Below are positions 2,715 through 8,817 of a DNA stretch of 44,980 nt, piece by piece (position 1 is the first letter of the stretch; each line of letters begins with the position of its first letter). Below the pieces are notes generated by a model. That model was not told where the DNA came from and searched no databases. It was given only the letters and a program-made list of their open reading frames with translations. The translations under genes were made by a program, and so were the position numbers. Location of the stretch: contig SCQT01000032.1 in the NCBI GenBank assembly GCA_004322015.1, positions 1 to 44,980 of the forward strand, written 5' to 3'. This stretch comes from Chitinophagaceae bacterium (GTDB taxonomy: Bacteria; Bacteroidota; Bacteroidia; Chitinophagales; Chitinophagaceae).

Positions 2715-4394
2715 ATGATTAAGCATCTCAGTTGGAGAGAGCAGGCAGTTCTTTTTCCAAAAGACAGAAAAGTGGTGATGGTACTAAAGCCATATATGTG
2801 GGTAATTTTCGGCTGTATCATTTTAATTCCCATCATTATCGCATGGATTCAGTATGCAGCTTTTGGTTTACCTGCTGATCCGTCCGCACACTTTAATCCG
2901 GTTGGCCCGCAGGTTCCTACAGACCCTGCTGGTTTTCCGGCATGGATTCGTATCAGCCATTGGGTAAACTTTCTTTTTCTGACCCTGATCATGAGAAGCG
3001 GATTGTCCATTTTATTTGATCATCCGCGTTTGTACTTTAACGATGGATGCACACCTCACACAGAATGGATCCGTTTTACTCCGATTAAAGTGCCTGCTTT
3101 TAAAATGTGGACTGCCAAAGAAGATGCAAGATATATTAGTCCGTGGATCGGTTTGCCCGGGTATCGTCATACCATTGGTTTAGCAAGGGTGTGGCATTTC
3201 CTTACCGTTCCTTTTTTCCTGCTGAACGGGGCCATTTTTATCGTTTTGCTGTTTGTTACCAATCAATGGAAACGTTTGGTGCCTCATTCATGGCAAATCC
3301 TTCCGGATGCGTGGAAAGTTTTTGTGCATTATGCCACTTTCCATTTCCCGATTGAGCCTAACGGTTTTTTTCATTACAATGCGTTACAACAGTTAGCCTA
3401 CTTTGCAGTGGTATTTATCCTGGCTCCTTTAGCTTTGCTCACGGGCTTGGCTATGTCTCCTGCAGTTGAAAACCGTTTTCACTGGTATCCTAAATTATTC
3501 GGAAACAGACAATGTGCCCGTTCCGGCCATTTTATGGTGCTGGTAGTCTTTTTTATTTTTATCATCATTCACGTGGCGCTGGTAGCAGCTACCGGATTAA
3601 GCGTGAACATGAATCATATTGTAATGGGTACGAATGCCACTCATAATTATACGGGATTATATATTGGCATTGCTATTGTCTTATTCGTTTGCTTATGTTG
3701 TTACCTGGCTTTATGGCTTTCGTGGCATCATCCGAGACCGTTACAAAAAGCGCAGGCAAATATCAATGGCCGGTTGTGGCGCGGGAGTATCAATATGTTC
3801 AAACCAAGGCCGTACTATACCAAAAAAGATATTTCTCCTTATTTCTGGCCGAACGGCAAATTGCCGGATTCCAGGGAATGGCAGGAATTGGCAAAGAATG
3901 ATTTTAAAGATTATAAGTTGAAAGTGGGTGGAATGGTCGAAAATCCTGTGGAGTTATCCCTGGATGATCTGAAGAAGATTGCCAAGGAGGAAAATATTAC
4001 CATGCATCACTGCATCCAGGGATGGTCCGGCATAGCAGAATGGGGAGGGCTTCCTATCAGTAAATTGGTTGAGATCGTAAAGCCCTATCCCACCGTGACT
4101 ACCGTGGCATTCATCTCCTTTGGGGGAGGGCTTTACGGCGGATTATATTATGATACGCATACCCTGGATAATTGTCTGAAACCGCAGTCCATTCTTGCAT
4201 GGGAAATGAATTATAAACCATTACCTATTGCCCATGGCGCTCCGTTAAGATTGCGTATTGAAAATCAGTTGGGCTACAAAATGGTCAAATGGATCGAATC
4301 CATTGAATTTCTGGAATCTCACGAGCATATCGGTAAAGGTTATGGCGGCAGAAATGAGGATGATGAATATTTTGATCTGTATGCAGATACTTGA
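2715..4394 (+). CDS. cytochrome b561-like / sulfite-oxidase-type molybdopterin fusion protein
   Basis: The 559-residue protein has two halves. Residues 1-340 hold about six membrane helices (near 28-50, 81-100, 157-182, 224-247, 271-293, 313-337). Histidines sit in helices 2, 3 and 5 (ISHWVNF, RVWHFL, GHFMVL, IIIHVAL), as in di-haem cytochrome b proteins. Residues about 395-540 form an oxidoreductase molybdopterin-binding (SUOX/MsrP-type) domain: HHCIQGWSG with Cys433 as the likely Mo ligand, SFGGG, IAHGAPLRLRIEN and GYKMVKWI. The likely role is electron transfer between the quinone pool and a Mo-catalysed redox reaction; the substrate is unknown. No Tat or Sec signal precedes the Mo domain. 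The charge pattern of the loops puts both ends in the cytoplasm. moaA follows 29 bp downstream, so enzyme and cofactor synthesis are linked. Confidence 0.85.
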   Translation: MIKHLSWREQAVLFPKDRKVVMVLKPYMWVIFGCIILIPIIIAWIQYAAFGLPADPSAHFNPVGPQVPTDPAGFPAWIRISHWVNFLFLTLIMRSGLSILFDHPRLYFNDGCTPHTEWIRFTPIKVPAFKMWTAKEDARYISPWIGLPGYRHTIGLARVWHFLTVPFFLLNGAIFIVLLFVTNQWKRLVPHSWQILPDAWKVFVHYATFHFPIEPNGFFHYNALQQLAYFAVVFILAPLALLTGLAMSPAVENRFHWYPKLFGNRQCARSGHFMVLVVFFIFIIIHVALVAATGLSVNMNHIVMGTNATHNYTGLYIGIAIVLFVCLCCYLALWLSWHHPRPLQKAQANINGRLWRGSINMFKPRPYYTKKDISPYFWPNGKLPDSREWQELAKNDFKDYKLKVGGMVENPVELSLDDLKKIAKEENITMHHCIQGWSGIAEWGGLPISKLVEIVKPYPTVTTVAFISFGGGLYGGLYYDTHTLDNCLKPQSILAWEMNYKPLPIAHGAPLRLRIENQLGYKMVKWIESIEFLESHEHIGKGYGGRNEDDEYFDLYADT

Positions 4395-5553: not shown

Positions 5554-5784
5554 ATGGAAAAACAGGCAATCTTGGAACGAACTATAGAAGCTATTAGAAG
5601 GCTCCCTAAAGAAAAGGCAGAGGAAATTTCTGACTTTGCTGATTTTGTATTAAGTAAGTATGAAGATCAGACTTTGACTGAGGGCATTCAACAATTGGTT
5701 TCTGAAAGCTCATCATTCCAATTTTTAAAAGATGAAGAAGATCTATATTCTGTATCTGATTTAAAAGAAAGATTCCATGAGTAA
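5554..5784 (+). CDS. antitoxin of a PemK/MazF-type toxin-antitoxin pair
   Basis: A 76-residue acidic protein whose first half (ERTIEAIRRLPKEKAEEISDFADFVLSKYE) resembles small DUF2281-like antitoxins: a helical LP-x-EK..EV.DF..FL module. The charged C-terminal tail ends in DLKERFHE and could wrap the toxin. Its stop codon overlaps the start of the toxin gene by 8 bp, the translational coupling expected of an antitoxin-toxin operon. It is assigned mainly by position and general form; no DNA-binding motif is clear. Confidence 0.7.
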   Translation: MEKQAILERTIEAIRRLPKEKAEEISDFADFVLSKYEDQTLTEGIQQLVSESSSFQFLKDEEDLYSVSDLKERFHE

Positions 5785-6097
5785 AGGTGATATTATTCTT
5801 ATCCCTTTCCCATTTTCTGATCTAAGCGGCAGTAAATTGAGGCCAGCAGTCGTCTTAATTGAAGGTGAAATGGATTTAACCGTTTGTTTTGTGACCTCAC
5901 AATTGAAGTGGCAACACGATACTGATATATTTATCCACCCTGATTCTGTAAATGGATTAAAAAAGAATTCTCTAATTCTTTTAAACAAAATTGCATGCAT
6001 TGAAAAAAAACTTGCATTAGGCAGACTTGGCTGCCTTAACGGACAACAGATCAGTGAATTAAATACAAATTTAAAAAGGCTATTGAAATTAAATTAG
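5777..6097 (+). CDS. PemK/MazF-family toxin (endoribonuclease)
   Basis: The 106-residue protein begins with the family hallmark: GDIILIPFPFSDLSGSKLRP followed by AVVL, i.e. the G-D-I-x-L-x-x-F-P-F core and the K-x-R-P loop. Strands follow (LTVCFVTSQL, NSLILLNKIACIEKKL), ending in the lgrl..l.dlk..L helix pattern. Family members are small SH3-like barrels that cleave RNA to stop growth. It overlaps the antitoxin gene by 8 bp. No frameshift is visible, so it should be active. It interrupts an otherwise continuous run of moa/moe genes and probably arrived as an insertion. Confidence 0.85.
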   Translation: MSKGDIILIPFPFSDLSGSKLRPAVVLIEGEMDLTVCFVTSQLKWQHDTDIFIHPDSVNGLKKNSLILLNKIACIEKKLALGRLGCLNGQQISELNTNLKRLLKLN

Positions 6098-6149: not shown

Positions 6150-6516
6150 ATGAAAATTCTTTTCTTCGGGGCAGGCGTTATAGGCAGTGTCTATGCTTTA
6201 GAGTTATATGAAAGTAGCTGCGATGTACCGTATTGACGAGAAGAGAGCGGCTGCAGATTTTAAAGAAGACCGGTATGCAGATGAGAAAAGATAAAAACGG
6301 CATTTGGGAAATGGTAATGCCTGTTCGTGAAGGACTTAAGGCTTTAAGATCATTGGGGCTATGGCTCCACATGTAAACGCAGCTACAGGTGAGATGCAAT
6401 TAACAGCAAAAAAAGTATTACAAACAGTACATAAATTTTCTGTTAAAACACCCACACTTGATAATTTACTATCTGAATTCATACATGAAAAACAAAACGA
6501 TCATCAACGTGAATAA
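6150..6516 (+). pseudogene. broken ketopantoate-reductase-like gene (ApbA/PanE family)
   Basis: This stretch between the toxin and moeA carries pieces of one protein in different frames. An ATG at 6150 gives MKILFFGAGVIGSVYALEL, the NADPH-binding G-A-G-x-x-G start of the ketopantoate reductase family, and stops after 28 codons. In another frame T-R-R-E-R-L-Q-I-L-K-K-T-G follows, like the family's 'lArg.r...l...G' region. After another shift, PHVNAATGEMQLTAKKVL then KTPTLDNLLSEF, up to the TAA at 6514-6516, matches its C-terminal helical part. Most of the roughly 300-residue enzyme is deleted. The family has many uncharacterised branches, so the original need not have been PanE itself. It is clearly non-functional. 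Confidence 0.65.
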
Positions 6517-6531
6517 AGTTTTTTGAGCCTT

Positions 6532-7737
6532 ATGGAATTTATTACCGTAGAACAAGCAGAATCCATTATTCAATCGCACGTGGAGAGTTTCAGATCGGAA
6601 GAAGTTCCTTTTGAAAGCTCATGGGGAAGAATATTGGCGGAAGATATTTTTGCCGATCGGGATTTACCGCCTTTTAATCACCCTACGGTGGATGGAATAG
6701 CTATTCAGTTTGGCGCATGGGAAGAAGGCATTCTCCAGTTTAACATAAAGGCTACTCAGGCAGCAGGAGAGCACCCTGTTGGAATAGAAAATAAAGCTGA
6801 ATGTGTAGAAATTATGACGGGCGCTGCTTTGCATAATTCGGTTGACACCGTGATCCGCTATGAAGATCTTCGCATAGAGAATGGAATAGCCGTCATTCGC
6901 ATTCCTGAAATAAAAAAAGCCCAAAACGTTCATCCTAAAGGAAAAGATAAAAGACAGGGTGAAAAAGTAGCTGAAAAAGGAATAATTATTGATGCTGTCT
7001 TGACGGGCCTGGCGGCTTCTGTTGGTAAAACTAAATTATCAGTTATGGAATTGCCGCATATCGTAATTATAACTACCGGTAATGAAATGGTAAGTGCAGA
7101 TACAATACCATCCGGATACCAGTTGAGAAGGTCAAATGATTATATGATTAAGACAGCGCTGAAGTCTTTTCAAATTCATGCAGATACTGTTCATTTACAA
7201 GACGATCCGGACCTGATAAAAACCGAATTAAATCGTTGCCTGCAAGCGTATGATGTTATTCTGCTGAGCGGCGGTGTCTCCATGGGGAAATTCGATTATG
7301 TGCCAGAAGCATTACGGGAACTGAGGGTTGAAAAATTATTTCATAAAGTCAGGCAAAGGCCGGGTAAACCATTTTGGTTTGGAAAATATGAGAAACGGGT
7401 ATTGGTATTCGCATTTCCCGGCAATCCCGTTTCAGGTTTTATGTGTCTGCACCGGTATTTTATTCCCTGGTTAAAAAGGTCTTTGCAATGGCGAGGTGAC
7501 ATACCCGAATTTGCCATACTGGCTAATGACATTTACTTTCCTCATCCCCTCCAATATTTTGCCCAGGTAAAACTCTCGGTCAATAAGGAAGGAAAATGGC
7601 TGGCAAGTCCTTTGGAGGGAAATGGTTCGGGAGATTTTATTAATTTGCTTCATACGAATGCATTTATGGAATTACCTTTGGAGAAAGATGAGTTTAAAAA
7701 AGGAGAAGTGTTCAGGGTGTGGAGATATAATAATTAG
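6532..7737 (+). CDS. moeA: molybdopterin molybdenumtransferase MoeA
   Basis: MoeA inserts molybdate into adenylylated molybdopterin. Family features in the 401-residue product are an N-terminal VEQAESIIQSH helix; the PTVDGIAIQF segment, where the usual D-G-Y-A reads D-G-I-A; TGAALHNSVDTVIRYED; TTGNEMV; the substrate loop LLSGGVSMGKFDYV; and FAFPGNPVSGFMC before the C-terminal domain IV. An in-frame TTG at 6523 lies upstream, but ATG 6532 is the natural start. It is followed after 2 bp by moaC. A broken gene and a toxin pair now separate it from moaA, so it may rely on a new promoter or on read-through. Confidence 0.95.
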   Translation: MEFITVEQAESIIQSHVESFRSEEVPFESSWGRILAEDIFADRDLPPFNHPTVDGIAIQFGAWEEGILQFNIKATQAAGEHPVGIENKAECVEIMTGAALHNSVDTVIRYEDLRIENGIAVIRIPEIKKAQNVHPKGKDKRQGEKVAEKGIIIDAVLTGLAASVGKTKLSVMELPHIVIITTGNEMVSADTIPSGYQLRRSNDYMIKTALKSFQIHADTVHLQDDPDLIKTELNRCLQAYDVILLSGGVSMGKFDYVPEALRELRVEKLFHKVRQRPGKPFWFGKYEKRVLVFAFPGNPVSGFMCLHRYFIPWLKRSLQWRGDIPEFAILANDIYFPHPLQYFAQVKLSVNKEGKWLASPLEGNGSGDFINLLHTNAFMELPLEKDEFKKGEVFRVWRYNN

Positions 7738-7739
7738 TT

Positions 7740-8216
7740 ATGGCCGGCTTTACACATTTAAATGAAAAATCTCAACCTGTTATGGTTAACGTGAGTGACA
7801 AAGGCATCACCCATCGCTCAGCTATGGCACAATGTATTGTAACTTTGCCGGAGAAGGTTTTAAAAGCATTACAGGAGAATGATTTTAAGACAAAAAAGGG
7901 ATCGGTGTTCCAGACAGCGATCATTGCGGGTATTATGGCGGCGAAGAAAACAGGCGAATTGATTCCTTTATGTCATCCACTGGGATTGGAAAATTGTGAA
8001 TTGAATGTTCAATTGAATGAGCAGCAGGAATTGGTTATTCAGTGTACGGCAAGTATAGAAGCTAAAACCGGTGTGGAAATGGAAGCATTAACCGGTGCAT
8101 CTGTGGCGGCGCTTACCATTTATGACATGTGCAAAGCATTGAGTCACGATATAGTGATCAGAGAATTAAAACTCATGGAGAAAACGGGAGGCAAACATGA
8201 TTTCAAAAGAAAATAA
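7740..8216 (+). CDS. moaC: cyclic pyranopterin monophosphate synthase MoaC
   Basis: MoaC converts MoaA's product 3',8-cyclo-GTP to cyclic pyranopterin monophosphate. The 158-residue protein has the complete signature: VSDKGITHRSAMA, the catalytic lysine region KKGSVFQTA (Lys53), LIPLCHPLGLENCE at 75-86, TGVEMEALTGASVAALT and IYDMCKAL with the catalytic Asp129. This length is standard. It starts 2 bp after moeA and overlaps mobA by 20 bp, so translation of the three genes is likely coupled. Confidence 0.97.
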   Translation: MAGFTHLNEKSQPVMVNVSDKGITHRSAMAQCIVTLPEKVLKALQENDFKTKKGSVFQTAIIAGIMAAKKTGELIPLCHPLGLENCELNVQLNEQQELVIQCTASIEAKTGVEMEALTGASVAALTIYDMCKALSHDIVIRELKLMEKTGGKHDFKRK

Positions 8217-8817
8217 TTTCCCCGCCATCAACGGATTGGTATTGGCAGGCGGCCAAAGCAAACGGATGGGAAGTGATAAAGGTTTAATGCAATGGCACGG
8301 GAAAGAACAGCGTTATCATGTAGCTGATTTATTAAAAAACTTTTGTGAAGATGTATTTATTTCCTGCCGTGCAGACCAGGAGAAGGAAATAGATACCAAT
8401 TATAAAACTTTGACAGATACCTTTTTAAATTTAGGCCCTTACGGAGGAATCCTTTCGGCGCTTCGTTCGGACAGCACTAAAGCATGGCTGGTGGTTGCCT
8501 GTGATCTGCCATTAGTGGATGAAGCGACTATTAAATATTTAGTAGATAAAAGGAATCCACAGTCCATTGCCACTACTTTTGAAAGTCCGCACGACGGTTT
8601 ACCCGAGCCTTTGATCACTGTTTGGGAGCCACAGAGTTATCCGGTTTTATTAGACTTCCTTGGACGGGGTTACACTTGCCCGAGAAAAGTATTAATTAAT
8701 AGTGATAAAACTATGCTGCAACCTCCGCATCCAGGAGCATTGATGAATGTGAATACGCCGGAAGATGCCGAAAAGGCAAAGAAACAGTTAAAGCAGGATA
8801 AAATGATATCATTTTAA
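8197..8817 (+). CDS. mobA: molybdenum cofactor guanylyltransferase MobA
   Basis: MobA links GMP to molybdopterin to make the guanine-dinucleotide cofactor. The 206-residue product has the nucleotidyltransferase start GLVLAGGQSKRMGSDKG (about 13-29), then LTDTFLNLGPYGGILSAL, the metal-binding VVACDLPLVDE, and MNVNTPEDAEKAK at the C-terminus. The sulfite-oxidase fold enzyme upstream normally uses cofactor without a nucleotide, so mobA suggests another, DMSO-reductase-family enzyme elsewhere in the genome. The start at 8197 lies inside moaC (20-bp overlap), which is the first ATG that keeps the family N-terminus. Confidence 0.93.
   Translation: MISKENNFPAINGLVLAGGQSKRMGSDKGLMQWHGKEQRYHVADLLKNFCEDVFISCRADQEKEIDTNYKTLTDTFLNLGPYGGILSALRSDSTKAWLVVACDLPLVDEATIKYLVDKRNPQSIATTFESPHDGLPEPLITVWEPQSYPVLLDFLGRGYTCPRKVLINSDKTMLQPPHPGALMNVNTPEDAEKAKKQLKQDKMISF

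Follow-up and report, generated by a model that had tools for sequence, protein, structure and literature searches.

Near the start of a 44,980-nucleotide stretch of DNA from a Chitinophagaceae bacterium (GCA_004322015.1, contig SCQT01000032.1; the whole stretch is referred to here as the window) lies a gene for a single polypeptide that joins a six-helix cytochrome b to a molybdenum (Mo) domain of the sulfite oxidase (SO) fold. We propose that this fusion protein is a single-chain, quinol-driven Mo reductase facing the cytoplasm, with a nitrogen oxide (nitrate or nitrite) as the likeliest substrate, and give this reading as a whole a probability of roughly 0.38. The architecture and topology of a six-helix haem-Mo fusion are very likely as proposed; the reducing direction is probable by a modest measure; a nitrogen oxide is our best single guess at the substrate and a tentative one. 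Haem occupancy, haem pairing, the quinol site, direction and substrate are what we infer for it.

The open reading frame (ORF) is intact and matches two Pfam models above their curated cut-offs, Ni_hydr_CYTB (PF01292) at residues 74-291 (42.2 bits, cut-off 30.1) and Oxidored_molyb (PF00174) at residues 395-536 (103.3 bits, cut-off 24). Hydropathy picks out six hydrophobic segments (residues 27-45, 83-101, 163-181, 227-245, 273-291 and 317-335), and an AlphaFold2 model built on the family alignment (pLDDT 82.8, pTM 0.81) places helices at these six sites together with the Mo fold. The first-pass annotation of this DNA had read one chain of six helices followed by a Mo domain, and had suggested structure prediction as a check; ORF, Pfam, hydropathy and the AlphaFold2 model all bear that description out.

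A domain-architecture search had also been suggested there; a scan of a collection of genome contigs recovered 186 relatives, with nearly the whole query covered in the kept set. The best 80 of the 186 were fetched, a choice that favours full-length copies, and the alignment holds 77 sequences including the window protein, to which identity ranges from 54 to 93%; four frameshifted copies (L010, L022, L037 and L039) were left out of it and retained in the neighbour counts. The nearest relative (L002, 93% identical) comes from a metagenome-assembled genome (MAG) titled Chitinophagaceae. With phylum labels taken from record titles, the carriers span Bacteroidota, Ignavibacteria, Planctomycetes (including a complete Brocadia), Verrucomicrobia, Acidobacteria and one Chloroflexi MAG, and such a recurrence of the fusion, at 54-93% identity and under record titles from six phyla, is beyond chance. 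Among culturable genera it occurs in Pedobacter, Arachidicoccus, Chitinophaga and Mucilaginibacter. Nine residues are invariant in all 77 sequences: H82, H103, H152, H161, H272, H286, H431, H432 and C433. Three copies in MAGs titled Eubacteriaceae, Desulfobulbaceae and Kuenenia (L009, L019 and L057) resemble those of Bacteroidota or Planctomycetaceae and are probably misbinned or mislabelled; the gene order at L057 is shared with L052 and L053. Two separately named MAGs (L060 and L061) have an identical neighbourhood with identical coordinates and probably represent one organism.

The cytochrome family is assigned by the PF01292 match, which is the significant sequence evidence for it. In a profile alignment that is itself non-significant (HyaC, E 0.083), H82, H161, H272 and H286 fall opposite H22, H63, H184 and H198 of HyaC, and the 14 residues from His272 to His286 repeat the spacing of HyaC 184/198 and FdnI 155/169, residues that we take to be haem ligands. 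By analogy with FdnI and HyaC, H82 would pair with H286 and H161 with H272. The two b-haem-type histidine pairs, invariant in 77 of 77 sequences, support the first-pass view of a di-haem cytochrome b. In fold comparisons, residues 68-310 superpose on FdnI (Z 9.5, 180 residues, 3.7 A) and residues 74-295 on HyaC (Z 8.1); such Z scores are middling for helical bundles and count only together with PF01292. The FdnI and HyaC hits come from a second fold comparison, and the Foldseek matches at E <=0.001, among those listed, all fall on the Mo domain. The comparison with MsrQ originally drawn finds no support for the membrane half: its matches are of the PF01292 (HyaC/FdnI) type, no MsrQ model appears among the Pfam and NCBIfam matches of the fusion, and E. 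coli MsrQ aligns at a non-significant E of 0.092, as do HyaC (0.083) and FdnI (0.38) when used singly in the same test. The two further invariant histidines, His103 and His152, possibly serve a third cofactor or an electron path.

Membrane topology is predicted from the distribution of charge. In the window protein the loops on the predicted inner side carry 18 lysines and arginines (K+R) and those on the outer side 4; the family means are 16.9 and 4.6, and inner exceeds outer in 77 of 77 members. FdnI and HyaC, whose N-termini are inside, served as controls, with K+R counts from N- to C-terminus of 5, 1, 7, 2 and 12 and of 2, 2, 7, 1 and 6, respectively; the matching segments of the fusion family average 1.3, 8.4, 2.0, 4.0 and 1.3, the reverse of both. 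The bundle thus appears inverted by the extra first transmembrane helix (TM1), and on the simplest reading TM1 flips it so that the face that is periplasmic in HyaC and FdnI is apparently turned to the cytoplasm, where the Mo domain attaches. Both termini, and hence the Mo domain, are predicted to be cytoplasmic. An inward N-terminus fits the PxDRR motif that most members have ahead of TM1 (R18 in 71 and R19 in 69 of 77; RK at residues 18-19 in the window protein), and the stretch after TM6 is positive, with a mean of 4.3 K+R in 26 columns. No N-terminal export signal was seen in the window protein by eye, no signal-peptide program having been used, and no twin arginine (RR) stands ahead of its TM6. 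In these respects, positive-inside loops that put the Mo domain in the cytoplasm and the lack of an export signal, computation and inspection by eye agree with what had been proposed.

The Mo domain is by sequence nearest to MsrP (8.7e-15), ahead of plant sulfite oxidase (1.8e-11) and SorA (6.7e-10), with yeast nitrate reductase further off (5e-6). By fold the nearest is SorA (Z 14.7), with yeast nitrate reductase (2bii, 13.9) and MsrP (13.5-13.6) close behind it. Cys433, aligned with the MsrP cysteine, is the predicted Mo ligand. The fusion misses the NCBIfam equivalog cut-off for MsrP (68.9 versus 207), and its Pfam matches include no dimerisation domain. MsrP is a weak reductase of dimethyl sulfoxide (DMSO), trimethylamine N-oxide (TMAO) and methionine sulfoxide and lacks sulfite oxidase activity (PMC4228395); since the Mo domain is nearest to MsrP, this leans towards a reductase. 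The inner loop between TM2 and TM3 (residues 102-162, positions 3018-3200) has 18 invariant residues in 61, several of the Mo-domain fold alignments start inside it (at residues 114-133), and this loop may lie against the Mo domain.

In the mechanism that we propose, quinol would be oxidised near the periplasmic haem (H82/H286), a site that we infer; electrons would cross the membrane from there to the cytoplasmic haem (H161/H272) and pass on to the Mo-pterin at Cys433, which would take oxygen off the substrate inside the cell. The polarity resembles that of NarGHI, in which quinol is likewise handled outside and Mo inside, and with such a polarity turnover would build membrane potential and conserve energy in the reducing direction. 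NarGHI itself is built differently, from three chains, with a Mo subunit of the DMSO reductase family and iron-sulfur clusters. An SO-fold Mo domain is shared with the eukaryotic assimilatory nitrate reductase (2bii), a soluble, cytoplasmic, NAD(P)H-driven enzyme with cytochrome b5 and flavin adenine dinucleotide domains. That the family constitutes yet another kind of respiratory nitrate (or nitrite) reductase in prokaryotes, in which a single SO-fold polypeptide with an inverted hydrogenase-type cytochrome b would do by itself the job of the three NarGHI subunits, charge separation included, is an extension that we hold to be rather doubtful.

The case for a nitrogen oxide comes from the gene neighbourhoods and from genome content. 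Hidden Markov models (HMMs) of neighbour clusters were applied to 81 loci and to 33 control regions, the latter drawn from 20 carrier genomes out of 49 reached (one control, L091, is only 5.7 kb long and another, L104, partly overlaps the flank of L060), and the Pfam scan covered 257 of the 285 nearest neighbours, the remainder being excluded for size; the enrichments are exploratory, because the clusters were chosen for their frequency and the HMMs built from the loci themselves. A cupin is found at 19 loci versus 0 controls, TM_HPP at 18 versus 0, Crp/Fnr at 16 versus 0, ScdA at 12 versus 1, DUF488 at 12 versus 1 and an NnrS-like protein at 11 versus 0, whereas a histidine-kinase group (16 versus 2) and a sigma factor (8 versus 4) are less enriched or not at all. 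The association is sharpest in Acidobacteria: HPP, NnrS-like or ScdA genes occur at 21 of 23 loci versus 0 of 12 control regions from carrier Acidobacteria, and at 13 Acidobacterial loci HPP lies directly downstream in the same direction. Locus L059 reads Crp/Fnr-ScdA-fusion-HPP-NnrS and L054 ScdA-fusion-HPP-NnrS, and at L081 NirK lies near the fusion, between two NnrS genes. A role for HPP in nitrite transport is described in PMC7438415. Across the 49 carrier genomes, NnrS occurs in 14 and ScdA in 31. The likeliest interpretation is that the fusion belongs to a module for handling nitrite and nitric oxide (NO), at least in Acidobacteria. The main text of one study of the NO regulon (PMC1274295) contains neither 'molybd' nor 'sulfite'. 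The cupin and DUF488 genes recur in both Bacteroidota and Acidobacteria, and DUF488, a domain of unknown function in Pfam, in Verrucomicrobia too; the order fusion-cupin-DUF488 is seen at L014, L015, L021 and L039, in genomes titled Ferruginibacter or Chitinophagales.

The genome of the window organism (4.5 Mb in 300 contigs, with the fusion on contig C291) encodes NirB, NirD and three NirK proteins above cut-off. The fusion is its one PF00174 protein, and its one PF00384 protein is NuoG, encoded in the window; neither PF02738 nor, at 1e-8, PF01568 was found, MOSC and tungsten enzymes lying outside the search. With molybdenum cofactor (Moco) genes and no other Mo enzyme found in a nitrite-using genome, the fusion is the sole customer found. 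It had been argued earlier that the Moco genes support a working enzyme, and the lack of another Mo enzyme of the three families searched fits this. One of the three NirK genes (L166, L167 and L168), on contig C36, lies beside a 1441-aa ORF that by eye resembles Cas9.

A phylogenetic profile was drawn from 294 genomes of the same family, of which 15 carry the fusion (counting G451, with two fragments, and G504, with one internal TAG), 67 NirB, 52 a NasA-type protein and 32 NirK; 'NasA-type' denotes a PF01568 match below 1e-29 in an open frame of ~1145-1250 aa, a label given without a nitrate reductase model. NirB is present in 9 of 15 carriers versus 58 of 279 others (p 0.0016), NirK in 5 versus 27 (p 0.015) and the two together in 4 versus 5 (p 0.0005), by Fisher tests that ignore kinship and with several gene families tried (NirB, NasA-type, any PF01568, NirK). 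The profile supports a link to nitrogen or to Mo in general rather than a particular substrate. A simple replacement of the assimilatory nitrate reductase was considered and rejected, NasA-type proteins being present in 6 of 15 carriers and the fusion absent from 12 of the 15 genomes with NirB and without NasA-type.

Several findings weigh against a nitrogen-oxide reductase. The 14 recurrent neighbour families are absent from the window locus and from its near relatives L002, L003, L004, L007 and L008, and 24 of the 81 loci have none of them; the HPP and NnrS-like links are restricted to Acidobacteria; HPP, NnrS-like, ScdA or hemerythrin genes occur at only 6 of 37 Bacteroidota loci; and of eight NnrS-like neighbours scanned three score above the Pfam cut-off, one scores below it and four have no match. 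In the profile, proteins of the Mo-binding family PF01568 are likewise commoner in carriers (11 of 15 versus 89 of 279, p 0.0017), as are NasA-type proteins (6 versus 46, p 0.03), so that the association with NirB and NirK may stem from a broader capacity for Mo or nitrate. Of the 15 carriers, 6 lack NirB, 5 lack both NirB and NirK, and only 3 of the 15 genomes with NirB and without NasA-type have the fusion, two of these in one genus. Within the protein, the inner loops have the higher share of invariant residues (30 in 114, versus 13 in 107 for the outer segments). After this recount conservation was no longer taken to mark an outer quinol site; contact with the Mo domain may account for the higher density inside. 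Because conservation is not biased to the outside and the window locus has no nitrogen-related neighbours, the odds of the proposed reading were lowered slightly. Finally, TauE, of the sulfite exporter family, adjoins the fusion at four loci titled Planctomycetes or Kuenenia, where there is an aminotransferase too, and SLAC1 lies within 200 bases of it at six Bacteroidota loci; both could point to sulfite.

These last neighbours would suit a cytoplasmic sulfite dehydrogenase that passes sulfite electrons to the quinone pool, as the cytoplasmic sulfite-oxidising system SoeABC does, which it would match in place and not in fold. SorA is the top fold match of the Mo domain. TauE and SLAC1 families also carry other anions, however, the sequence is closer to MsrP than to sulfite oxidases (and MsrP, as noted above, lacks that activity), and with quinone on the outside this direction would be expected to spend membrane potential; we regard it as unlikely. 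A cytoplasm-facing MsrP-type reductase of S-oxides or organic N-oxides, quinol-driven and acting on methionine sulfoxide, DMSO or TMAO-like compounds, is somewhat improbable in our view. It would draw on the same nearness to MsrP and on the weak activities described for that enzyme, on a C-terminal DEYFDL that resembles DEYGFYAN of E. coli MsrP (a short likeness, judged by eye), and on ScdA being a stress-repair protein; the nitrosative context in Acidobacteria would then reflect general stress regulation. MsrA and MsrB, however, are common in the cytoplasm, the 25 Pfam families listed as commonest in each neighbour set include none of methionine sulfoxide reductases, and the HPP and NirK neighbours indicate nitrogen oxyanions. 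An MsrPQ pair in one chain was rejected on the missed MsrP cut-off, the topology and the PF01292 match.

The Mo domain could also lie outside, as in a periplasmic MsrPQ-like single chain whose last helix is inserted by the twin-arginine translocation (Tat) system. There is a precedent for such a fusion in Sco3746, which combines haem-binding helices with a Moco domain and has five transmembrane domains (TMDs); RR precedes TMD5, and reporters placed behind TMD5 are exported by Tat (PMC5449189). RR in the TM5-TM6 stretch is found in just 4 of 77 fusion sequences, 5 residues before TM6 in L055 and 18 residues before it in L064, L067 and L069, and a Tat-inserted last helix was rejected as a candidate on this count. 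An outer Mo domain would also require five or seven helices, or an N-terminus outside, which the charge pattern of 77 of 77 members opposes; the positive stretch after TM6 fits the inside, yet Tat-inserted helices show such stretches too (PMC5449189). We consider an outer Mo domain very unlikely.

Against this background, the contrast first drawn with separate MsrP and MsrQ stands for the fusion itself and needs a further correction: a fused haem-Mo family was already known in Sco3746, with the opposite topology (PMC5449189). That protein and the present family share haem helices followed by a Moco domain in one chain. They differ in helix number, with five TMDs in Sco3746 and six helices here; in twin arginines, which immediately precede TMD5 in Sco3746 and occur near TM6 in 4 of 77 members of the present family (<=5 residues away in one); and in the side of the Mo domain, which is exported in Sco3746 and which the charge rule predicts to be cytoplasmic in 77 of 77 members here. 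Chloroflexota fusions were used as loose stand-ins for Sco3746 (16 fetched and 13 read, with L148, L155 and L156 left out); in 11 of the 13, RR stands 2-7 residues ahead of the final hydrophobic segment before the Mo domain. These fusions carry C(I/V)SN and a C-terminal domain longer than that of the window family, whose C-terminus is short and whose motif is HHCIQGWSG. Because obvious conserved haem histidines are lacking, they may not be genuine orthologues of Sco3746. MsrP/MsrQ offers the nearest Mo domain by sequence and a haem partner in the membrane; MsrP is separate and Tat-exported (PMC4228395), and the Mo domain of the window protein lies C-terminal to six helices with no Tat motif before it. 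With HyaC and FdnI the family shares the four-helix bundle and four histidines in ligand positions, and differs in being joined to its enzyme and in having, by prediction, reversed loop charges, orientation not being a defining feature of PF01292. HyaC and FdnI are separate subunits whose catalytic side is periplasmic, and prokaryotic SO-fold enzymes are mostly described as exported.

Haem-Mo fusions as such are therefore known already; the combination of six helices, an apparently inverted hydrogenase-type bundle and an MsrP-like cytoplasmic Mo domain is apparently new, and a literature survey of titles and the beginnings of abstracts returned no paper on a six-helix, cytoplasm-facing haem-Mo family. 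If the proposal is right, a widespread, strictly conserved, cytoplasm-facing single chain would represent a minimal redox-loop enzyme and a natural example of a cytochrome b bundle that a single extra helix has inverted. Should nitrate or nitrite prove to be the substrate, genomes at present taken to have no nitrate reductase would have to be scored anew.

Features of the fusion gene and of the genes downstream of it (positions in the window)
Feature	Position	Strand	Basis or remark
Fused di-haem cytochrome b / SO-fold Mo protein	2715..4394	+	Intact ORF, ATG start, 559 aa; Pfam, AlphaFold2
TM1 (residues 27-45), extra N-terminal helix, PxDRR family motif before it	2793..2849	+	Hydropathy, alignment
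His82, invariant, predicted periplasmic-side haem ligand, putative partner His286	2958..2960	+	Alignment; pairing from FdnI/HyaC
TM2-TM5 (residues 83-291), HyaC/FdnI-type four-helix bundle, apparently inverted	2961..3587	+	Pfam, hydropathy, fold, loop charges
His103, invariant, cytoplasmic membrane interface	3021..3023	+	Alignment
His152, invariant, cytoplasmic membrane interface	3168..3170	+	Alignment
His161, invariant, predicted cytoplasmic-side haem ligand, putative partner His272	3195..3197	+	Alignment
His272, invariant, predicted cytoplasmic-side haem ligand	3528..3530	+	Alignment
His286, invariant, predicted periplasmic-side haem ligand	3570..3572	+	Alignment
TM6 (residues 317-335), extra helix, predicted to bring the chain back to the cytoplasm	3663..3719	+	Hydropathy, AlphaFold2
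Oxidored_molyb domain (residues 395-536), by sequence nearest MsrP	3897..4322	+	Pfam, NCBIfam, sequence comparison
Cys433 in HHCIQGWSG, predicted Mo ligand, invariant 77/77	4011..4013	+	Alignment
moaA	4424..5410	+	ATG 4424 likelier than first predicted start TTG 4391; probably same operon as fusion
Small ORF overlapping the toxin gene, upstream of it; likely antitoxin	5554..5784	+	Position only
PemK/MazF-type toxin gene between moaA and moeA	5777..6097	+	Pfam
moeA	6523..7737	+	Profile matches
moaC	7740..8216	+	Profile matches
mobA-like nucleotidyltransferase	8197..8817	+	100.3 bits, below TIGR02665 cut-off of 151.85

The genes downstream of the fusion confirm the earlier statement that Moco genes follow directly, moaA, moeA, moaC and a mobA-like gene all being found, with the toxin gene and the small ORF interposed. 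A guanine dinucleotide cofactor should be unnecessary for SO-fold enzymes; the mobA-like gene is present though NuoG is the sole DMSO-reductase-type protein found in the same genome. Between the toxin gene and moeA, positions 6178-6516 hold short overlapping frames, a possible gene remnant.

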